Below are positions 31,622 to 42,979 of a stretch of 64,000 nt of DNA, piece after piece; the first letter of the stretch is position 1; each line of letters opens with the position of its first letter. Under the pieces are notes generated by a model. That model had not been told where the DNA came from and did not search any database. It saw nothing but the letters and a program-made list of their open reading frames with translations. Source of the DNA: Planctomycetota bacterium. GTDB lineage: Bacteria; Planctomycetota; UBA1135; GCA-002686595. The translations under genes and the position numbers were made by a program. The stretch spans positions 1-64,000 of the forward strand of contig VGZE01000003.1 in the NCBI GenBank assembly GCA_016872755.1, given 5' to 3'.

Positions 31622-32161
31622 ATGTACTTCGACTACTTCACAGTCCTCGTCTTCGCCAGCGTCGGACTGGCGTTCGTCTTCGCGAACCTGCTGATCGCGT
31701 CGGTGCTGCGACCCCAGCGCACGCAAGATGAGGGCCTCGAGACCTACGAGTGCGGCGAGGTCACGATCGGCGAAGCCTGGATCCAGTTCGACATCCGGTA
31801 CTACACAGTCGCGCTGGTCTACGTGGTGTTCGCCGTCGAGATCGCGTTCCTCTTCCCGTGGGCCATCGTGCTGAAGGAGGCCTACGCCGGAACTGGAGCC
31901 GGCGCCGGCGCGGGCATCGGCATCTTCGCCCTGATCGAGGGCGTGATCTTCCTCGCCGTGCTCGCGCTCGGCCTCGCCTACGTGTGGGCCAAGGGGGATC
32001 TGGACTGGGTGCTCACGTACAGCGCGCAGCCGTACCAGCCGGCCGGCCGCGAATCGTCCAATCTCCCGCTCGTGCAGGAGCTCGAGAAGGAACAGGAACG
32101 CCTCGCGGAAGAGCGCAAGAAGGCCGCTGCCGCGGCGGCCAGCTCAGAAGCGGCGGCCTAG
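31622..32161 (+). CDS. nuoA: NADH-quinone oxidoreductase subunit A
   Basis: 179 aa, three membrane helices. MYFDYFTVLVFASVGLAFVFANLLI begins helix 1; ETYECGEVTIGEAWIQFDIRYYTVALVYVVFAVEIAFLFPWA is the conserved loop with the ND3-type Cys and helix 2. Start ATG 31622 fits family starts; the open frame upstream is not NuoA-like. An about 45-residue Lys/Glu/Ala-rich tail after helix 3 makes it longer than E. coli NuoA (147 aa). It forms part of the membrane arm near the quinone site. First gene of the operon; preceded by CCTCCCCCG rather than a Shine-Dalgarno sequence. Confidence 0.95.
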   Translation: MYFDYFTVLVFASVGLAFVFANLLIASVLRPQRTQDEGLETYECGEVTIGEAWIQFDIRYYTVALVYVVFAVEIAFLFPWAIVLKEAYAGTGAGAGAGIGIFALIEGVIFLAVLALGLAYVWAKGDLDWVLTYSAQPYQPAGRESSNLPLVQELEKEQERLAEERKKAAAAAASSEAAA

Positions 32162-32224: not shown

Positions 32225-32725
32225 ATGGGAATCCTCGAGAAGCAGTTCGAAGAAAACGTGCTGACCACGCGCGTCGATTGGCTGATCAACTGGGCGCGCC
32301 TCTCGAGCATCTGGCCGATGACGTTCGGTCTGGCCTGCTGCGCGATCGAGATGATGGCCGTCGGCGCGGCGCACCACGACATCGATCGCTTCGGCGCGGG
32401 CGCGTTTCGCGCGACTCCCCGGCAGGCCGATCTGATGATCGTGGCCGGTACGGTCAACTTCAAGATGGCCGAGCGCATCCGGCGCCTGTACGACCAGATG
32501 CCGGGCCCCAAGTACGTGATCGCGATGGGCGCGTGCGCGACCGGCGGCGGCCCCTACTACAAGTACGGATACACGGTGGTGAAGGGCGTCGACCGCGTCG
32601 TGCCCGTGGACGTGTACATCGCGGGATGTCCGCCGCGCCCGGAAGCGTTGCTCGAAGGCCTGATGCTCCTGCAGGAGAAGATCCGCCGCTCCTCGGTGGT
32701 CCGTCGGCCCGCGCGCCTGGCCTGA
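32225..32725 (+). CDS. nuoB: NADH-quinone oxidoreductase subunit B
   Basis: 166 aa. It carries the N2 cluster: the tandem Cys of LACCAIEMM, the Cys of [13 protein letters not shown] and that of [11 protein letters not shown] are present in the right order. N2 is the last iron-sulfur cluster before quinone, at the junction of the peripheral and membrane arms. [25 protein letters not shown] is a typical start. It lies 63 bases after nuoA and 35 bases before nuoC. Confidence 0.97.
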
Positions 32726-32760: not shown

Positions 32761-33279
32761 ATGGACTTTCAAGCCATCCACGACCGACTGCGGGTGCTGC
32801 GCGCGCCGGGTCTGCTGGGCAGCGACGAGCCGCGGCCCGCCGATCCCAAGGACAAGCACTCCAAGGGCCGCGCCGGTGATCCGTTCCTGCTCGTCGACGC
32901 GCAGAAGCTCGTCGATTTCCTGGTCGTGTGCCGCGACGACGCGCGCTTGTCCTTCGAGATCCTGGCCGACCTGAGCGCGACCGATCCGTCCAAGGACGCG
33001 GCGGACCTTTGGATCAACGTCAACCTGCTGTCGGTGCGGCACAAGCACCGGTTGGCGATCAAGTGCACGCTGGCCAAGCAACAGGCGCGCATGCCGAGCT
33101 CGGTGCGGGCCTACCGCGCCGCGCAGTGGGCCGAGCGCGAGTGCGGCGAGATGTTCGGCATCGAATTCACCGGGCACCCCGATCCGCGCAACATCCTGTT
33201 GCCGGACGACTGGATCGGTGCGCCGCTGCGCAAGGACTACGAGTTCCCCAAGGAGTATCACGGCATCTCCTGCGTGTAG
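32761..33279 (+). CDS. nuoC: NADH-quinone oxidoreductase subunit C
   Basis: 172 aa, not fused to NuoD. Signature WAERECGEMFGIEFTGHPDPRNILLPDDWIGAPLRKDYEFPKEYHGI is intact; it packs against NuoD in the peripheral arm. The N-terminal part (residues 20-45, SDEPRPADPKDKHSKGRAGD) is a charged linker not typical of the family. The ATG at 32761 is used because homologous sequence begins soon after. Confidence 0.95.
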   Translation: MDFQAIHDRLRVLRAPGLLGSDEPRPADPKDKHSKGRAGDPFLLVDAQKLVDFLVVCRDDARLSFEILADLSATDPSKDAADLWINVNLLSVRHKHRLAIKCTLAKQQARMPSSVRAYRAAQWAERECGEMFGIEFTGHPDPRNILLPDDWIGAPLRKDYEFPKEYHGISCV

Positions 33280-33298: not shown

Positions 33299-34525
33299 AT
33301 GGCCCAGACCGCACCGGACTCCAAGCAGGGCGCGAGCCCGTCGATGTCGCTCGACGAGGCGCGCGTGCTGCCCAGTGGCGAGCGCGAGTTCATGCTCGAC
33401 GTGCGCACGCAGGACATGGAGCTCAACATGGGGCCGCAGCACCCCGCGACCCACGGCGTGATGCGCATCCTGCTGCGCGTCGACGGCGAGATCGTCACGG
33501 GCGCGCAGCCGCATCTGGGGTATCTGCACCGCTGCGCGGAGAAGATCGGCGAGAACGTCGAGTGGCTGCAGTACCTGCCGTACACCGACCGGTACGACTA
33601 CCTGTCGTCGATGAACAACAATCTCGGTTACAGCATGGCCGTCGAGGCGCTGATGACCGGGCTGGAGATCCCGCGCCGCGCGCAGATGCTGCGCATCATC
33701 TGCGCCGAGCTCAACCGCATCGGCAGCCACTTGATCGCGTACGGAACGTACGGCCTCGACATCGGCGCGTTCACGCCGTTCTTCTACGCGTTCCGCGAGC
33801 GCGAATGGATGATGGCGCTGTTCGAGAAGATCTGCGGCGCGCGCCTGACCTACTCGTACATCCGCATCGGCGGCGTGTTCAACGACGCTCCTCCGGGATG
33901 GCTCGGCGAAGTCGAGCGCTTCTGCGACGTGTTCGAGCAGAAGTGGGTCGAGTACTACGACCTCTTGATGGAGAATCACATCTTCGTCAAGCGCACCGCC
34001 GACGTGGGCGTGATCTCGCGCGAGATGGCGCTGGATTTCGGTCTGACCGGTCCGATGCTGCGCGGGTCGGGGGTCGACTGGGACCTGCGCCGCGACATGC
34101 CCTACTCGCTCTACGGCGAGATCTGGAAGGACGGCGCCTTCAAGATCCCCGTCGCACGCGGGGAGAAGGGCTCGCTCGGCGACTGCTGGGACCGCACCTG
34201 GGTGCGCGTGATGGAGATGATGGAATCGATCAAGATCGTGCGCTGGTGCCTGGCGCACATCGAGCCCGGTCCGATCATCGGCGACGTGCCCAAGGTGCTG
34301 CGCGTGCCGACCGGCGAAGCCTACGTGGGCATCGAGAATCCGCGCGGCGAGCTCGGGCACTACGTGGTGTCCGACGGCGGCAAGGTCGCGATTCGCGTGC
34401 GTGTGCGCGGCCCCAGCTTCGTCAACGTCGCCGTGACCGAGGCGCTGATGACCGGCACGTTGTTGTCCGACGCGGTCGCGATCGTCGGTTCGACCGACGT
34501 CGTGATCGGGGAGACGGACCGCTAG
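33299..34525 (+). CDS. nuoD: NADH-quinone oxidoreductase subunit D
   Basis: 408 aa. The family signature LNMGPQHPATHGVMRILLRVDGEIV is at residues about 41-66 and the quinone-site region NMGPQHPATHG His and later Tyr/Asp positions (YTDRYDYLSSM) are intact, as is the ending TEALMTGTLLSDAVAIVGSTDVVIGETDR. It forms the quinone pocket with NuoB. A good ribosome-binding site (AAGAGGAAC) precedes ATG 33299. The 30-residue N-terminal extension is likely disordered. Confidence 0.97.
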   Translation: MAQTAPDSKQGASPSMSLDEARVLPSGEREFMLDVRTQDMELNMGPQHPATHGVMRILLRVDGEIVTGAQPHLGYLHRCAEKIGENVEWLQYLPYTDRYDYLSSMNNNLGYSMAVEALMTGLEIPRRAQMLRIICAELNRIGSHLIAYGTYGLDIGAFTPFFYAFREREWMMALFEKICGARLTYSYIRIGGVFNDAPPGWLGEVERFCDVFEQKWVEYYDLLMENHIFVKRTADVGVISREMALDFGLTGPMLRGSGVDWDLRRDMPYSLYGEIWKDGAFKIPVARGEKGSLGDCWDRTWVRVMEMMESIKIVRWCLAHIEPGPIIGDVPKVLRVPTGEAYVGIENPRGELGHYVVSDGGKVAIRVRVRGPSFVNVAVTEALMTGTLLSDAVAIVGSTDVVIGETDR

Positions 34526-34528
34526 CCC

Positions 34529-35728
34529 ATGCTCGCCGTCACTGAAACGCCGCTCGCCGCGCCGGCTCCCGTCGGCGACGGGAACCTGGTGCTCGACCTG
34601 CTCACCGGCCTGCGTCCCGAGAGCGTGCCGCTGTGGGCCGTCATGGCAACCTCCGCGCTGATCGCCGTCGGCTTGGCCGTCGCGCTGATCTCGCTGATCG
34701 CGATGTTCTCGACCTGGATGGAGCGCAAGGTCGCCGGCCACATCCAGTGCCGCTACGGCCCGATGCACGTCGGTTGGCACGGCTGGCTGCAGCCGATCGC
34801 GGACGGCGTGAAGCTGTTGCTCAAGGAGGACATCATCCCCAAGGGCGCGGACAAGGTGCTGTTCGTGCTCTCGCCGGCGATCGTGCTGGCGAGCCTGCTC
34901 GGCGCGATGGCGGCGCTCGCGCTGTCGCCGAACTTCTTCTTCGCCGACATCGACCTGGGGGTCTTCTTCATCCTCGCGATGACCTCCACCACGACCATCG
35001 GCGTCGTCATGGCGGGCTGGGCATCGAACTCGAAGTGGTCGCTGTACGGCTCGATGCGCGAGGCCGCGCAGGTGATCGCGTACGAGGTTCCGCTGGGCAT
35101 CTCGCTGATGGTGCCGCTGATCGTCGCCGGGACGTTCAATCTGCGCGAGGCCAGCGCGGCGCAAGGCGGCTGGTACGGCATGCACTGGTTCGTGTTCCAG
35201 AACCCGTTCATGCTCCCGGCCTTCCTGCTCTTCTTCACGGCCGTGCTCGCCGAGACCAAGCGCGCGCCCTTCGACTTGCCCGAGTCCGAGTCCGAACTCG
35301 TCTCGGGCTTCCTGACCGAGTACTCGGGCATCCGCTGGTCGTTCTTCTTCATGGAAGAGTACGCGGCGATGTTCCTGTACTCGGCCGTCGGCGCCTTCTT
35401 CTTCTTCGGCGGCTTCGAGAGCCCGTTCACCTGGGCCGTCGCGCAGATGGCGCCGCACACGATCGATCTCGGCGAGACGATCGGCACGCTGAAGCTGCTC
35501 GGAGAGGGCAGCCTGCTGCACAACCTCGTCGCCGTCGCGACCATCGTCGTGAAGGCCTTTGCCGGCGTGTTCCTGATGATGTGGGTGCGCTGGTCGTTGC
35601 CGCGCATCCGCATCGATCAGGTCATGACGCTCGGCTACAAGTACCTGACGCCGCTTTCCATGGTGTGCGTGCTCGGCGCGGCGCTCTTCGAGCTCGCCTG
35701 GATCCGCTTCTTCGGAGGCGCGAGCTGA
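34529..35728 (+). CDS. nuoH: NADH-quinone oxidoreductase subunit H
   Basis: 399 aa, about eight or nine membrane helices. Conserved loops are visible: FSTWMERKVAGHIQCRYGPMHVGWHGWLQPIADGVKLLLKED and ETKRAPFDLPESESELVSGFLTEYSGIRWSFFFMEEYA, which line the quinone channel and the E-channel. It is longer than E. coli NuoH (325 aa) because of an N-terminal extension and an insert before the last helices. It starts three bases after nuoD. Membrane arm. Confidence 0.96.
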   Translation: MLAVTETPLAAPAPVGDGNLVLDLLTGLRPESVPLWAVMATSALIAVGLAVALISLIAMFSTWMERKVAGHIQCRYGPMHVGWHGWLQPIADGVKLLLKEDIIPKGADKVLFVLSPAIVLASLLGAMAALALSPNFFFADIDLGVFFILAMTSTTTIGVVMAGWASNSKWSLYGSMREAAQVIAYEVPLGISLMVPLIVAGTFNLREASAAQGGWYGMHWFVFQNPFMLPAFLLFFTAVLAETKRAPFDLPESESELVSGFLTEYSGIRWSFFFMEEYAAMFLYSAVGAFFFFGGFESPFTWAVAQMAPHTIDLGETIGTLKLLGEGSLLHNLVAVATIVVKAFAGVFLMMWVRWSLPRIRIDQVMTLGYKYLTPLSMVCVLGAALFELAWIRFFGGAS

Positions 35729-35779
35729 GCCGAGGCCGGTTCCCACCGCGGCGCCAACCACTCGAACGACGAGAGCCCG

Positions 35780-36325
35780 ATGAACGCAACTGCGAAATAC
35801 GCGAAGAACGTCTGGGACGGTCTGAAGTCCTCCCTCGTGGGGATGCAGATCACCGGCAAGTACCTGCTGCAGAAGCCGATCACGGTGCAGTACCCGCTGG
35901 AGCGCCTGCCGATCCCCAATCGCTACCGCGGCATCCACTACCTCGAGCAGGAGAAGTGCATCAACTGCCTCGCCTGCGCGCGCGCCTGCCCGATCGACTG
36001 CATCGAGATGGACGCGGTGCGCCACGGCAAGGAGCTCGAGTGGGTCAGCTTCACGCTCGACTACCAGAAGTGCATGTTCTGCGAGCTGTGCGTCTATCCC
36101 TGCCCTAAGGACTGCATCCACATGGGCACCGAGTTCGCGTTCGTCAGCTACGACCGCAGCGAGTTCAAGCACGACCTCCTGTCGTTCAAGGGCATGGCGC
36201 GCGAGGCGAAGATCCGCATGCTCGAGGCCGAGGAGAAGAAGAAGCGCAAGGAGGCGGCCAAGGCCGCCGGGCAAGAGGTGGCGGACGAGCCCGAGAGCGA
36301 CGCGGACGCGGAGGCGGAGAGCTAG
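35780..36325 (+). CDS. nuoI: NADH-quinone oxidoreductase subunit I (two 4Fe-4S clusters)
   Basis: 181 aa. Two ferredoxin motifs, CINCLACARACPIDC and CMFCELCVYPCPKDC, bind clusters N6a and N6b, which pass electrons to N2. A Lys/Glu-rich helical tail (EAEEKKKRKEAAKAAGQE and acidic end) of about 40 residues goes beyond the E. coli protein. Usual start MNATAKYAKNVWDGLKSSLVGMQITGKY. Four bases separate it from nuoJ. Confidence 0.97.
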   Translation: MNATAKYAKNVWDGLKSSLVGMQITGKYLLQKPITVQYPLERLPIPNRYRGIHYLEQEKCINCLACARACPIDCIEMDAVRHGKELEWVSFTLDYQKCMFCELCVYPCPKDCIHMGTEFAFVSYDRSEFKHDLLSFKGMAREAKIRMLEAEEKKKRKEAAKAAGQEVADEPESDADAEAES

Positions 36326-36329
36326 GCCG

Positions 36330-36980
36330 ATGGTTCCAGCGAGCTCCGGCCCGGGCCCGATCGGCGGCGACCCCAACCTGCAGCGCCTGTTCTACGGGGC
36401 GCTGGCCCTGCTCGGCCTGGTTGCGCTCGTCGCGGGCGGACTGCGCGCGGGCGCGCCGGGCGTCGCGTTCGGGTTGATGGCGCTGCTGACGGTCGGCGGC
36501 GCTCTCGCCTGCGTCTGGGAACGTTCGGTCGTGCGCAGTGCGTTCGCGCTGATGGCGACGTTCATGGGCACGGCCGGCATCTTCGTGTTGCTCGAGGCCG
36601 ATTTCCTCGCCATGGCGCAGGTGCTGATCTACGTCGGCGGCATCCTGGCGCTGCTCCTGTTCGGCGTGATGCTGACTCCGCCCGATCTCGGCGAGCGCAA
36701 GCTCACGCGGGTGCTCGGCGGCCTCGCGGTCGTCGGCGCCGCGACCATCTGGATCGGCATGCAGGTCGCCGGGAGCGCGAACTTCTCGGGGCAGCCCGTG
36801 CTGACTCCCGGCGAGACCGCGGATCCGGTCACGGCGAAGGACATCGGTGTCGGTTTCCTCGCCTACGACCAATACGTGATCCCGTTCGAGCTCGCGGCGG
36901 TGCTGTTGACGGTGGCGTTGGTCGCCTCCGTGTACATCGCGCGCCGCAAGCGCTCGGACTACGCGGAGGAGCGCCGATGA
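36330..36980 (+). CDS. nuoJ: NADH-quinone oxidoreductase subunit J
   Basis: 216 aa, five membrane helices. Helix 3 region VLIYVGGILALLLFGVMLT contains the pi-bulge Tyr/Gly pattern of ND6/NuoJ. The frame ends in TGA that overlaps the ATG of a 54-codon gene. NuoJ couples quinone reduction to the antiporter-like subunits. Slightly longer than E. coli NuoJ (184 aa) by an N-terminal extension. Confidence 0.95.
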   Translation: MVPASSGPGPIGGDPNLQRLFYGALALLGLVALVAGGLRAGAPGVAFGLMALLTVGGALACVWERSVVRSAFALMATFMGTAGIFVLLEADFLAMAQVLIYVGGILALLLFGVMLTPPDLGERKLTRVLGGLAVVGAATIWIGMQVAGSANFSGQPVLTPGETADPVTAKDIGVGFLAYDQYVIPFELAAVLLTVALVASVYIARRKRSDYAEERR

Positions 36981-37141
36981 AGCTCGCCTCCGCCATCGCT
37001 TTCGCGCTCGTCGGTTGGGGCGCACTGCTGCTCCTGACGCTGGCCAGCGCGCGCTTCGCGCGCGGCCTGCGGCTGGCCTGGCGCGAGTTTCACTGTGCCG
37101 CGCTCGGCCGCGCGCCGTCGACCAAGCGGAGGAACGCCTGA
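36977..37141 (+). CDS. 54-aa membrane protein coupled between nuoJ and nuoK
   Basis: A previously easy-to-miss frame. ATG 36977 overlaps the nuoJ stop by four bases (ATGA) and its own TGA shares the A of the nuoK ATG at 37141. Residues 5-24 (SAIAFALVGWGALLLLTLAS) form one membrane helix; the rest is basic with one Cys (ARGLRLAWREFHCAALGR..PSTKRRNA). Third positions are GC-rich as in true genes here. Coupling on both sides makes it very likely translated. It does not resemble any canonical Nuo subunit; it may be an accessory or assembly subunit of this complex I. Function unknown. Confidence 0.75.
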   Translation: MKLASAIAFALVGWGALLLLTLASARFARGLRLAWREFHCAALGRAPSTKRRNA

Positions 37142-37461
37142 TGAGCCTGGGTGCCTACGTCGCCGTGTCGGCCGCGTTGTTCGCGATCGGGATCGTCACG
37201 ATCGTCACGCGCCGCAACATCCTGTACGTGCTGATGGGCATCGAGATGGTGCTCAACGCTGCCAACATCAACTTCGTCGCCTTCGGCCGGCACTATGGCG
37301 GCCTGCCCGGCGGGGGGGGCGGCCTCGAAGGGAAGATGTTCGCGATCTTCACGATCATCCTGGCCGCGGCCGAGGCCGCCGTCGCGCTGGCGATCGTGCT
37401 CAACGTGTTCCAGGCCTTCAACTCGGTCAAACCCAGTGAGGCAGATCAGCTGCGCGAGTAG
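37141..37461 (+). CDS. nuoK: NADH-quinone oxidoreductase subunit K
   Basis: 106 aa, three helices. RRNILYVLMGIEMVLNAANINFVAFGRH is the signature helix 2 with the conserved Glu (IGIEM-type, here MGIEM), and AAAEAAVALAIVLNVFQ holds the second Glu in helix 3. A Gly-rich loop (GLPGGGGGLEGK) replaces the usual short loop. The start shares one base with the stop of the 54-aa gene. Confidence 0.96.
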   Translation: MSLGAYVAVSAALFAIGIVTIVTRRNILYVLMGIEMVLNAANINFVAFGRHYGGLPGGGGGLEGKMFAIFTIILAAAEAAVALAIVLNVFQAFNSVKPSEADQLRE

Positions 37462-37512: not shown

Positions 37513-39879
37513 ATGCTCCAGTTCGACCCCGCGATCGACTTCAAGCTGCTGCTCGCGGTGCCGCTGATCCCGTTGTTCGGGTACGCGATCCAGATCTTTT
37601 TCGGCAAGTACCTGCCGCGCAAGGGCGACTGGCTGCTCCTCACGGGCATGTTCGTCGCGATGTGCATCACGCTGTACATGGCGGCCAAGGCGATCAGCGC
37701 CGGCTACGCCGGCGAGGAGTTCCGGCACAACTCGCTGGACCATGGCTGGGGCTTCCGCTGGCTGTACTCCGATCGCGGCTCGGAGGCTGGCTCCGGGAAC
37801 ATCGTCGCCGGCATCTTCTATGACGGCCTCGGAGCGGGAATGCTCGCCGTCGTCGGCGTCGTGTCGTTCTTCGTGCACCTGTTCTCGGTCGGGTACATGC
37901 ACGGCGACCGGCGCTACCACATCTTCTTCGCGAACATCAGCCTGTTCACGTTCGCGATGCTCGGGTTGGTCCTGTCGGACAACCTGCTGTTCCTGTTCAT
38001 CTTCTGGGAGCTGATGGGCCTGATGAGCTACCTGCTCATCGGCCACTTCAGTCACGACCCGAACAGCCCGCGCATCAAGTTCGCCGCATCGGCGTGCAAG
38101 AAGGCCTTCCTGACGACGCGCGTCGGCGACACATGCCTGTTCATGGGCATGGCGATCCTCTACTACAAGTTCGAGACGCTGCGTTTCACGGAGCTGTGGG
38201 AGCTCGTGCGGGTGACCGTCGAGCAGAACGGCGGCGAGTACCCGGGCTGGTTGACGGCGGCGGGTCTGTTGTGCCTGGGCGGCACGATCGGCAAGTCGGC
38301 GCAGTTCCCGCTGCACATCTGGCTGCCGGACGCGATGGAGGGCCCGACTCCGGTCTCCGCGATGATCCACGCGGCGACGATGGTCGCCGCCGGCGTGTTC
38401 CTGACCGGCCGCCTCTACCCGGTGTTCAGCCCCGAGGTGCTGGAGGTCGCCGCCATCGCGGGCGGCGTCACCGCGCTGTTCGCGGCGACGATCGGCACGA
38501 CGATCAACGACATCAAGGGAGTGCTCGCCTATTCGACGATCTCGCAGCTCGGCTTCATGGTCGCAGCTGTCGGCGTGGGCGGCGTCGTGCCAGGCATGTT
38601 CCACATGCTCACGCACGCGTTCTTCAAGGCCTGCTTGTTCTTGTGCGCCGGCTCCGTGATCCACGGCTGCCACCACGAGCAGGACATGCGGAAGATGGGC
38701 GGGTTGCGCAAGTTCATGCCCATCACGTTCGTGTGCATGCTCTTGTCGACGATCGCGATCGCGGGCATTCCGCTCTTCTCGGGCTTCTACTCGAAGGACC
38801 AGATCATCGCCGCGGCCTTCGAGCGCAACATGCTGCTGCCTTCGAGCACGGCGACCTTCGTGTCGATCGCGCTGCCGGCGGCCGCCCTGCTGACGGCGTT
38901 CTACATGTTCCGCCTGATCTTCATGACCTTCTTCGGCACGTACCGAGGGGGTCAGGCCGAGCACCACGTTTCACTGGCGGCAGCCGGACACGCGCACGTC
39001 GGGCATGCTCACGACGAGCACGGTGGCGGCCACGGTCACGCTCACGGCGGCCACGGTCATGGTGGTCACGGTCATGGCGGGCATGACCACGCCCACGGCG
39101 GCCATGGGAACGATCACTCCGGCCACGGCCATGATCACGATCACGGCCACGGCGGCCATGCCCACACGCCGCACGAGTCGCCGCTGCCGATCACGCTCGC
39201 GCTGATGGTGCTCGCCTTCCTCGGCGTGTTCGGCGGCCACTTCTGGCCGGCCACGCCGACCGATCCGCTGGCTCACCACGGCACCTGGTTCCAGAAGGTC
39301 GTCAGCCACGACTCGCTCTACGGCGAGAAGGTCGCGCGATTCGTCGAGGCGCGGCAACACCACGCGCTCGGCCCCCAGGCCGTCCCGCATGATCCCGAGC
39401 ACATCGAGCACGCCAAGCACGCCGCGCACGGCAAGGCCGTCGTCGTGTCGCTGTCGGTGGCCGGCGCCGGCATCCTGCTCGCCGCGCTGATGTACCTGTG
39501 GGGCAAGATCCGCCCGGAGAAGGTGGTCGGCGTGATCCATCCGCTCTACGAGCTGGTCGCGCACAAGTACTACTGGGACGAGATCGTGAACCTCCTGGTG
39601 ATCAAGCCGACCATGGCGCTGGCGAACTCGCTCAAGTGGATCGACGAGAAGCTCGTCGACGGATTCGTGCTGCTGGTCGGATTCACGCAGCGCGCGTTCG
39701 CATTCTTCTGGGCCTGGTTCGATCGCACGATCGTCGACGGCCTCGTGAACTTCGTCGGCCTGGTTTCGCAGTCGCTCGGCGCGATCACGCGCCTCGTGCA
39801 GACCGGGCGCATCCAACAATACGCGGCATTCGCGATGGGCGGCGGCCTGCTCGCGGCGGCCTGGCTCATCCTCAGCTAG
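37513..39879 (+). CDS. nuoL: NADH-quinone oxidoreductase subunit L with His-rich insert
   Basis: 788 aa, much longer than E. coli NuoL (613 aa). The antiporter core is intact: LFIFWELMGLMSYLLIG with the essential Glu, the Lys of TRVGDTCLFMG, GKSAQFPLHIWLPDAMEGPTPVSAMIHAATMVAAGV and YSTISQLGFMVAAVG. Residues 493-554 are an insert holding 25 His in 62 residues with Gly, Ala and Asp, just after helix MFRLIFMTFFGTYRGG. The C-terminal part has the long lateral helix and final anchor. NuoL pumps protons at the distal end of the membrane arm. The insert suggests metal binding. Confidence 0.96.
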   Translation: MLQFDPAIDFKLLLAVPLIPLFGYAIQIFFGKYLPRKGDWLLLTGMFVAMCITLYMAAKAISAGYAGEEFRHNSLDHGWGFRWLYSDRGSEAGSGNIVAGIFYDGLGAGMLAVVGVVSFFVHLFSVGYMHGDRRYHIFFANISLFTFAMLGLVLSDNLLFLFIFWELMGLMSYLLIGHFSHDPNSPRIKFAASACKKAFLTTRVGDTCLFMGMAILYYKFETLRFTELWELVRVTVEQNGGEYPGWLTAAGLLCLGGTIGKSAQFPLHIWLPDAMEGPTPVSAMIHAATMVAAGVFLTGRLYPVFSPEVLEVAAIAGGVTALFAATIGTTINDIKGVLAYSTISQLGFMVAAVGVGGVVPGMFHMLTHAFFKACLFLCAGSVIHGCHHEQDMRKMGGLRKFMPITFVCMLLSTIAIAGIPLFSGFYSKDQIIAAAFERNMLLPSSTATFVSIALPAAALLTAFYMFRLIFMTFFGTYRGGQAEHHVSLAAAGHAHVGHAHDEHGGGHGHAHGGHGHGGHGHGGHDHAHGGHGNDHSGHGHDHDHGHGGHAHTPHESPLPITLALMVLAFLGVFGGHFWPATPTDPLAHHGTWFQKVVSHDSLYGEKVARFVEARQHHALGPQAVPHDPEHIEHAKHAAHGKAVVVSLSVAGAGILLAALMYLWGKIRPEKVVGVIHPLYELVAHKYYWDEIVNLLVIKPTMALANSLKWIDEKLVDGFVLLVGFTQRAFAFFWAWFDRTIVDGLVNFVGLVSQSLGAITRLVQTGRIQQYAAFAMGGGLLAAAWLILS

Positions 39880-39919: not shown

Positions 39920-41446
39920 ATGCAAGAGCACATCCTGTCCTGGATCACCTTCCTCCCGCTCATCGGGATGGCGGCGATCCTGTGCGTCCCCCGGACCAAC
40001 ACCGGCCTGATCAAGGCGATCAGTCTGGCGGCGACGGGCATTCCGTTCGTGCTGGCGACCTGGCTCTACTTCGATCTGTTCGACAAGAGCTCGGCGAACC
40101 TCCAGTTCGTCCAGCGCCTCGACTGGATCACCTCGCTCGGCGCCTACTACTACGTCGGAGTCGACGGACTGTCGCTAGCGTTGGTGTGGCTGACCACGCT
40201 GCTTTTGTTCATCGCGGTGCCCGCGAGCTTCGGCATCGAGAAGTCGCAGAAGTCCTACTACGCGCTGTTGATGTTGCTGGAGGTCGGCATCATCGGCGTG
40301 TTCGTCGCGCTCGACTACTTCCTCTTCTACGTGTACTGGGAGGTGATGCTCCTCCCGATGTACTTCCTGATCGGGATCTGGGGCGGCCCGCGGCGCGAGT
40401 ACGCGGCGATCAAGTTCTTCCTGTACACGCTGGCCGGATCGGTGCTGATGCTCGTCGCGATCGTCGCGCTGCGCCTGCAGGCGGGAACGTTCTCGATCCC
40501 CGAGCTGATGGCGCTGGCCCAGTCCGGCGCGATGGACGGCAGCAAGCTGCCCGGCGGCGGCGAGCTGCTCGGCATGGGCTTCCAGACCTGGGTCTTCTGG
40601 TTCCTGTTCGTCGGCTTCGCGATCAAGGTCCCGGTGTTCCCGTTCCACACCTGGCTGCCCGACGCGCACGTGCAGGCGCCGACGCCGATCTCGGTGATCC
40701 TGGCGGGCATCCTGCTCAAGCTCGGCGGCTACGGCATGCTGCGCGCCTGCTTCCCGATCGTGCCCGACGCGTTCCGCGCCAATACCTACGTGCTCGGCAT
40801 TCTCGGCGTGATCAGCATCGTGTACGGCGCCTACGTCGCGCTCGGACAGAGCGACTTCAAGCGCATGGTCGCCTACAGCTCGGTCAGCCACATGGGCTAC
40901 GTGCTGCTCGGCATGGCCGCGCTGACCGAATGGGGCATGACCGGCGCGGCGCTGCAGATGTTCAACCACGGGACGTCGGCGGCCGTCCTGTTCCTCGTGG
41001 TGGGAGTCATCTACGACCGTGCCCACCACCGCGATCTGAACGGCTTCGGCGGCATCAGCCAGGTGATGCCGAAGTACTGGGCGCTGACGACCTGGGGTTT
41101 CTTCGCCGCGCTCGGGCTGCCGACGCAGGCGGGATTCGTGTCGGAAGCGATGACGCTCTTGGGCGCCTACCAGTCGGCGGACACGCGCTTCCAGGCGCTG
41201 GTCGTGATCTCACTGATCGGCATCGTGCTCACCGCGGCGTTCCTGCTGTGGGCCATGCAGCGCGTGTTCCTCGGCACGCTGAACGCGAAGTACAAGGACT
41301 ACGGCGACATGAACGCACGCGAGGTCTTCTGCCAGGCGCCGTTCCTCGCGCTGTGCCTGATCCTCGGCGTCTTCCCGTGGTTGCTCACGGATTGGATGGC
41401 CCCCACGATCAAGTTGGTCGTCGGCACGCTCTCCAAGTCGGCCTGA
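39920..41446 (+). CDS. nuoM: NADH-quinone oxidoreductase subunit M
   Basis: 508 aa, 14-helix antiporter-like subunit. Features: FLFYVYWEVMLLPMYFLIGIWGGPRREYAAIKFFLYTLAGSVLML with the proton-path Glu, VPVFPFHTWLPDAHVQAPTPISVILAGILLKLGGYGML, and SVSHMGYVLLGM. All key charged residues appear present. Normal length for the family. It starts 40 bases after nuoL, with GAGAGGGA upstream. Confidence 0.97.
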   Translation: MQEHILSWITFLPLIGMAAILCVPRTNTGLIKAISLAATGIPFVLATWLYFDLFDKSSANLQFVQRLDWITSLGAYYYVGVDGLSLALVWLTTLLLFIAVPASFGIEKSQKSYYALLMLLEVGIIGVFVALDYFLFYVYWEVMLLPMYFLIGIWGGPRREYAAIKFFLYTLAGSVLMLVAIVALRLQAGTFSIPELMALAQSGAMDGSKLPGGGELLGMGFQTWVFWFLFVGFAIKVPVFPFHTWLPDAHVQAPTPISVILAGILLKLGGYGMLRACFPIVPDAFRANTYVLGILGVISIVYGAYVALGQSDFKRMVAYSSVSHMGYVLLGMAALTEWGMTGAALQMFNHGTSAAVLFLVVGVIYDRAHHRDLNGFGGISQVMPKYWALTTWGFFAALGLPTQAGFVSEAMTLLGAYQSADTRFQALVVISLIGIVLTAAFLLWAMQRVFLGTLNAKYKDYGDMNAREVFCQAPFLALCLILGVFPWLLTDWMAPTIKLVVGTLSKSA

Positions 41447-41476: not shown

Positions 41477-42979
41477 GTGTCGAACTACCTGCAATCCCTG
41501 CCCAGCATCGCGCCTGAGATCGCGATGACGGTGCTGCTGTGCGCCGTGCTCGTCGTCGACCTCCTCCTCAAGGGACGCGACTCGCGCAAGGTCGGCTACC
41601 TGACGCTGGGCGGTCTGGGAGTCGTGGCCTGGTTGCTGCTCGGCCAATGGGGCGAACTCGGATCCGCCGGCGCGGCGAAGCGCGTGTTCGGCATGATCGA
41701 CATCGATCGGTTCAGCACGTTTTTCAAGCTGTTCACGGTCGGCTCGTTGGCCGCCGTCGTGCTTTTCGTGCTGCTCGATCGCCGCGAGCGCCGGCACGGG
41801 ATCGGCGAGTACTACCTGCTGCTGCTCGGCGCGGGTTTGGGGATCTTCTTCATGGTCAGCACGAGCAATCTGCTCCTGCTGATGCTCGGGTTGGAGCTGC
41901 TCTCGCTTGCGTCCTACTCGCTGGCCGGTTTCCACAAGGGAGACAAGCGCTCGGCCGAGGCGGCGATGAAGTACGTGGTCTTCGGCGGCTTGTCCGCCGG
42001 GGTCATGCTGTACGGCATCAGCCTGCTCTACGGCATCACCGGGACCATCGACCTGACCGAGATGGCGAGCGGGCCGCACAGCCTGGCCGCGCAGTTCAGC
42101 AGCGGCCCGGTGCCGGTGGCCGTCGCGATCGTGCTCGTGCTCGCGGGCTTCGCGTACAAGGTCTCGGTCGTGCCGTTCCACTTCTGGACGCCCGACGTCT
42201 ACGAGGGCGCGCCCACCCCGGTCACGAGCTTCCTCGCCGTGGCCTCGAAGGCCGCCGGCTTCGCGGCCCTGTTGCGCTTCGTCGGCAAGCTGTTCCTCGT
42301 CGACGGGGCCGATGGCGCGGTCCAGCAATACGGGGCGCGCATCGGCGCGCTGCTCGCGATCCTGTCCGCGCTCACGATGACGCTGGGCAACCTGGCCGCA
42401 CTGCGCCAATCGAGCATGAAGCGCATGCTCGCGTACTCGTCGATCGCGCACGCCGGCTACGTGCTGATGGGCATGGCCACGATGGAGTCGAGCGGGTGGA
42501 ACGCGGCGATGTTCTATCTCGCTGCGTACTACCTGATGAACCTGGGCGCGTTCGGATTCGTGCTCTACTTCGAGTCCGTCACCGGCTCGGACGATATCGC
42601 GAGCCTCAAGGGCCTCGGCGCGAAGGCGCTGTGGGTCACCGTGCCGATGGTCGTGTTCCTGGTCAGCCTGACCGGATTGCCGCCGACCGTCGGCTTCACC
42701 GGCAAGTACATGCTGTTCGTGGCGGGCGTCGACAACGGGCTGTTGTGGTTGTCGCTGGTGATGGCGCTGAACTCGGTCGTCAGCCTCTTCTATTACTTCC
42801 GCATCGTGAAGGCGCTGTTCCTGGCGGAGCCGGCCGAGCGCAGCATGCCCGGCCAGTCCGCACTGGCGGGTTCGATCTTCGTGCTGGCAGTGTTGACCGT
42901 GCTGTTCGGGCTCTACATCGCGCCGCTCCAAGCCTGGTGCGACGCGAGCGTGGAGAGCCTGCGCCTCGGCGCGGGTTGA
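41477..42979 (+). CDS. nuoN: NADH-quinone oxidoreductase subunit N
   Basis: 500 aa, start GTG 41477 with GAAAGG upstream. Antiporter-like: LLMLGLELLSLASYSLAGFHKGDKRSAEAAMKYVVFGGLSAGVMLYG, YKVSVVPFHFWTPDVYEGAPTPVTSFLAVASKAAGF and YSSIAHAGYVLMGMAT. Last gene of the operon; nothing resembling nuoE, nuoF or nuoG is within the window. A small imperfect hairpin with a TTTTT loop follows the stop. Confidence 0.97.
   Translation: MSNYLQSLPSIAPEIAMTVLLCAVLVVDLLLKGRDSRKVGYLTLGGLGVVAWLLLGQWGELGSAGAAKRVFGMIDIDRFSTFFKLFTVGSLAAVVLFVLLDRRERRHGIGEYYLLLLGAGLGIFFMVSTSNLLLLMLGLELLSLASYSLAGFHKGDKRSAEAAMKYVVFGGLSAGVMLYGISLLYGITGTIDLTEMASGPHSLAAQFSSGPVPVAVAIVLVLAGFAYKVSVVPFHFWTPDVYEGAPTPVTSFLAVASKAAGFAALLRFVGKLFLVDGADGAVQQYGARIGALLAILSALTMTLGNLAALRQSSMKRMLAYSSIAHAGYVLMGMATMESSGWNAAMFYLAAYYLMNLGAFGFVLYFESVTGSDDIASLKGLGAKALWVTVPMVVFLVSLTGLPPTVGFTGKYMLFVAGVDNGLLWLSLVMALNSVVSLFYYFRIVKALFLAEPAERSMPGQSALAGSIFVLAVLTVLFGLYIAPLQAWCDASVESLRLGAG

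Follow-up and report, generated by a model that had tools for sequence, protein, structure and literature searches.

A one-helix small gene at the nuoJ-nuoK junction of an 11-gene complex I operon in a planctomycete: a candidate lineage-specific accessory subunit

A nuo operon of a planctomycete carries an additional small gene between nuoJ and nuoK, and we consider it somewhat probable (roughly 55%) that its product is a lineage-specific single-helix accessory or assembly-stabilising subunit on the membrane arm of an 11-gene complex I. Genes of the same kind in three relatives suggest an overlooked lineage-specific accessory part of this enzyme. Bacterial complex I is usually regarded as a minimal complex, built from 11-14 conserved subunits. 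If our reading is true, the repeated gain of a lineage-specific one-helix subunit at one site would illustrate how supernumerary subunits first arise, and would provide, in bacteria, a system for direct comparison of close relatives that have or lack the gene.

The small gene and its operon

All genes described here lie on the forward strand of the window, that is, the whole stretch of 64,000 nucleotides analysed. The genes nuoA (31622-32161), nuoB (32225-32725), nuoC (32761-33279) and nuoD (33299-34525) were assigned by homology across the operons of the family, with approximate starts, and nuoH and nuoI (together 34529-36325), nuoL (37513-39879), nuoM (39920-41446) and nuoN (41477-42979) were taken from the gene map. 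As nuoH begins 3 nt after nuoD, there is no nuoEFG in this operon, which is of the 11-gene type (nuoABCDHIJ-x-KLMN, where x is the small gene) also found in the insert-bearing relatives. A second, divergent nuo cluster is present in the same genome (G000) on contig C34 (L117, L118) and contains the sole NuoF-family match of the genome. Thus, with an operon lacking nuoEFG and a NuoF in the second cluster, the small gene belongs to the 11-subunit enzyme type, for which the literature leaves the electron donor unresolved and does not exclude additional subunits (PMC11238625). The nuoD and nuoH matches of the C34 cluster are about 14 kb apart.

The small gene (36977-37141) encodes a product of 54 aa, MKLASAIAFALVGWGALLLLTLASARFARGLRLAWREFHCAALGRAPSTKRRNA, with a single hydrophobic stretch, one Cys (C40) and a net charge of +8. 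Its ATG (36977-36979) overlaps the nuoJ stop codon TGA (36978-36980) as ATGA, and the A of its own TGA (37139-37141) is the first base of the nuoK ATG (37141). The earlier note had described a 54-codon frame overlapping both neighbours, which proved exact, and its picture of one membrane helix, a basic tail and a single Cys was borne out by the translation. Shine-Dalgarno-like sequences precede both starts: GGAGGAG (36965-36971) within nuoJ, 5 nt upstream of the small-gene ATG, and GGAGGA (37128-37133) within the small gene, 7 nt upstream of that of nuoK. AlphaFold2, run on the single sequence, gave one helix over residues 4-43 with a mean pLDDT of 76. Residues 25-42 are basic and partly amphipathic (hydrophobic moment 0.63), with a permutation P of 0.02 that is optimistic because the segment was chosen for its high moment.

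Both neighbours are complete by Pfam: nuoJ (36330-36980; 216 aa) matches PF00499 over profile positions 1-146 of 146 (3.6e-30), and nuoK (37141-37461; 106 aa) matches PF00420 over positions 2-94 of 95 (2.1e-22). The small frame is therefore an addition and not debris of either gene.

Two further features of the operon were observed. At the start of NuoJ (36330-36450), an extra N-terminal hydrophobic segment lies ahead of the canonical first helix; it is present in all family members checked and absent from the few NuoJ proteins of other families that were examined (L023, L025 and L027). NuoL contains a His-rich insert (about 38960-39170) with 24 His in 60 residues; tracts of 21-23 His also occur in G005, G104, G066, other g26 genomes and G034, and are absent from G002 and G008.

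The same junction in relatives and the coding signal

We examined the nuoJ-nuoK junction in all 44 family genomes with a strong match to the window NuoK, the relatives being Planctomycetota metagenome assemblies. In 40 of the 44, the two genes are separated by -1 to +4 nt without any insert, which agrees with the earlier claim that such a gene is normally missing here. The remaining four are the window and three of its 43 relatives, namely G005 and G104, congeneric species with inserts of 45 aa each (47% identical), and G066, with an insert of 38 aa; these relatives represent two sister genera. The four inserts share one layout: they begin at the stop codon of nuoJ, code for a single hydrophobic helix and then a C-terminus of net positive charge, and have a stop codon that overlaps the nuoK ATG. 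The search of related genomes that the earlier note had proposed had a divided outcome: one-helix ORFs of 38-45 aa stand at the same position in G005, G104 and G066, but the window protein has no sequence relative. Since the gene is missing from most of the family, it is not needed for this enzyme generally.

No separate small gene was found at this junction in 44 further genomes (18 of the order and 26 across the phylum). Most of the wider gaps outside the family (L079-L081, L083, L139, L155, L160, L162-L164 and L166) read as in-frame lengthening of the NuoK N-terminus and not as separate ORFs; in the related family f7 (L079-L081, L083, L160, L162-L164 and L166), NuoK seemingly gains as many as about 55 residues in this way. 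Gaps between nuoI and nuoJ in G034 and G025 were also considered and contained no convincing helix-coding frame. In addition, several genomes of the family, including those of genus g65 of family f1 (G095-G103), had no NuoK match, and complex I may therefore be absent or very divergent there; G095 is a single contig.

Whether the small frame is coding was assessed with dinucleotide shuffles (n = 4000). As 72.9% of them remained open in this G+C-rich DNA, openness alone is no evidence. On the other hand, only 1.3% both stayed open and encoded any helix of KD ≥ 1.6, and none of the 4000 matched the observed helix (KD 2.11), even before a further factor of 1/3 for the frame. Across the four insert-bearing genomes (frames of 38-54 codons), 60-73% of shuffles were open, and 0 of 4000 in each combined an open frame with the observed hydrophobicity. 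The G+C content at the three codon positions of the small gene (0.69/0.61/0.91) fits a coding sequence (permutation P = 0.0005), and 0 of 2000 permutations reached the observed pattern for the inserts of G005, G104 and G066. It should be noted that both kinds of test bear on coding and not on function. The small frame is very probably a genuine protein-coding gene.

These data also bear on the possibility that the junction is a spacer without coding function, or that NuoK is extended N-terminally in another frame. Such extensions do account for the wide gaps in related families, and the NuoK frame of the window is open upstream; however, that upstream frame gives a non-hydrophobic Arg/Ala-rich stretch, the G+C pattern by codon position agrees with the small ORF, and nuoK starts at an ATG of its own with a Shine-Dalgarno-like sequence. 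We regard this explanation as very improbable.

Origin, selection and history

Searches with the window protein in 81 genomes of the family and in Pfam, NCBIfam and PDB detected no sequence relative. Weak matches in G085, G017 and G013 (E 0.0016-0.003) were partial, covered mainly the basic half (residues 16-53) and were judged to be noise. By alignment, clear homology among the four inserts exists only for the G005/G104 pair, and homology across genera is not demonstrable by sequence comparison. A profile of this pair recovered only itself above noise in the family search, and a g5-type protein moved elsewhere was looked for and not found in g26 genomes. Several possible origins were rejected. 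Duplication of the end of NuoJ or NuoK received no support from alignments compared with shuffles. A split NuoJ, with its C-terminal half as a separate ORF, disagrees with the full-length profile match of NuoJ, and the ORF aligned with NuoJ of the same genome at shuffle level. A TatA/E-type protein was also considered; the window ORF has no TatA_B_E profile match, and the G066 ORF scored 14.1 bits, below the cut-off of 21.

Purifying selection, for which the earlier note had proposed a test, was analysed in the G005/G104 pair only; the sole other genome of the window genus, G001, could not serve as a same-genus control because its contig C46 breaks off inside nuoK. The result was mixed. The dN/dS ratio was high (0.89) across all 45 codons and 0.53 within the helix, values that would not decide the matter by themselves. 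Neutral simulations matched for the number of changes kept both substitution conservatism and hydrophobicity in only 0.02-0.35% of runs (P 0.0002-0.0035) and thus reject drift of the helix. What is kept in this pair appears to be the helix rather than exact residues.

It is quite unlikely, in our view, that an insertion at this junction is simply tolerated only if translatable, such that the open frame and its overlaps are selected and the peptide does little. The ease with which frames stay open here (60-73% of shuffles) and the high dN/dS in G005/G104 fit this explanation. However, hydrophobicity is not required of a spacer, yet in each of the four genomes not one of the 4000 shuffles matched the observed helix, and retention of the helix exceeds the neutral simulation.

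In a tree built from NuoI, NuoJ, NuoK and the first 420 residues of NuoL, the G005/G104 genus and the genus of G066 were sisters with full support, and G066 was the first branch within its genus. The simplest account for this group is one gain on the stem and loss in the six other members of the G066 genus. The window lineage is placed elsewhere in the family, so its gene would be either an independent gain or what is left of an ancient gene after many losses. On this tree, the small gene was gained at least twice, or once long ago and then lost many times. A tentative and rather doubtful extension is that unrelated one-helix proteins were independently recruited at least twice within one planctomycete family to the same junction of the 11-subunit operon, and might represent convergent supernumerary subunits of the membrane arm at a recent stage.

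Proposed role and known systems

In the proposed mechanism, ribosomes that finish nuoJ would pass on by termination-reinitiation to the small gene and from there to nuoK, and the product may be made in equal stoichiometry with the Nuo subunits. The small protein would insert with its N-terminus outside and its C-terminus inside, an orientation predicted by charge only, leaving the basic, partly amphipathic residues 25-42 as a cytoplasmic stretch, and it would most likely pack against the membrane arm and stabilise it, by analogy with NdhP and NdhQ in NDH-1L. By inspection, residues 1-25 could also pass for a signal peptide, with LASA|R as the A-x-A site, and cleavage after ASA-25 would release a short basic secreted peptide. 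We consider this highly improbable: one basic residue before the helix versus about nine after it favours a C-inside orientation, and inspection of the G005, G104 and G066 proteins shows no site of this kind.

The exact overlaps with their Shine-Dalgarno-like sequences, the helix and codon-position signals, the repeated position, the helix kept in G005/G104 beyond neutral simulation and the 11-gene operon with NuoF elsewhere all count for an accessory subunit. Against it count the lack of a sequence relative, absence from most of the family, inserts that are not demonstrably homologous across genera and the dN/dS of 0.89 in the pair. A real small membrane protein might also be merely housed in the operon, as a regulator or a membrane-stress or quality-control peptide, and not be bound to complex I. 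Many one-helix proteins of bacteria are regulators, for example MgrB, and the patchy distribution (4 of 44) and lack of a conserved motif would suit such a role; however, separate lineages have same-kind genes at exactly this internal junction, each overlapping both of its neighbours, which argues for co-production with NuoJ and NuoK, and we hold the housed peptide to be unlikely. The accessory-subunit reading is plausible, and the genes at the same position in relatives lend it some additional weight; in this reading the protein would bind complex I.

Extra ORFs at this junction have another known source. In methanogens, a split fpoJ/nuoJ results in an extra ORF between nuoJ and nuoK. L069, in which a 275-bp gap follows a short NuoJ-like protein of 113 aa, is a possible case of this kind; unlike in L069, the window NuoJ is full length. 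Another operon for comparison is nuoABCDHIJKLMN of Desulfitobacterium hafniense, which encodes an 11-subunit complex I-like enzyme whose authors stated that additional subunits were 'not excluded' (PMC11238625). It has the same 11-gene order without nuoEFG, but, unlike the window operon, is listed without a gene between J and K (PMC11238625).

Cyanobacterial NDH-1L, with 11 core subunits, contains the single-helix peptides NdhP and NdhQ of less than 5 kDa (PMC4131877, PMC6992706), which flank NdhD (PMC6992706); NdhP has a predicted N-lumen/C-cytoplasm orientation and is essential for NDH-1L assembly (PMC4131877). The window operon likewise encodes an 11-core-subunit complex I-like enzyme without an NADH module, and the small protein of 54 aa (under about 5-6 kDa) resembles both peptides (about 5 kDa or less) in size and in having one helix (residues 4-43 in the model, KD 2.11), and NdhP in the N-out/C-in orientation predicted from the basic C-terminus. 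No sequence similarity was detected, and the proposed likeness is one of function. To our knowledge, ndhP does not lie within the ndh core operon. With the window ORF as query, phmmer gave no match up to E 10 among PDB sequences, which should include the NDH-1L entries 6HUM and 6NBY (PMC6992706), and the G005/G104 profile gave no relevant match. For very short helices this is a weak test, since they rarely show homology.

A further parallel is subunit IIa of B-type cytochrome oxidases, a one-helix protein of about 40 aa that is encoded in the operon of its enzyme, as the small gene is, and is often missed by annotation (PMC3128077). It differs in belonging to another enzyme and in that its presence in the complex has been shown by mass spectrometry (PMC3128077). 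One-helix accessory subunits are thus already known as a kind, and under the accessory-subunit reading the small gene is a new lineage-specific example.
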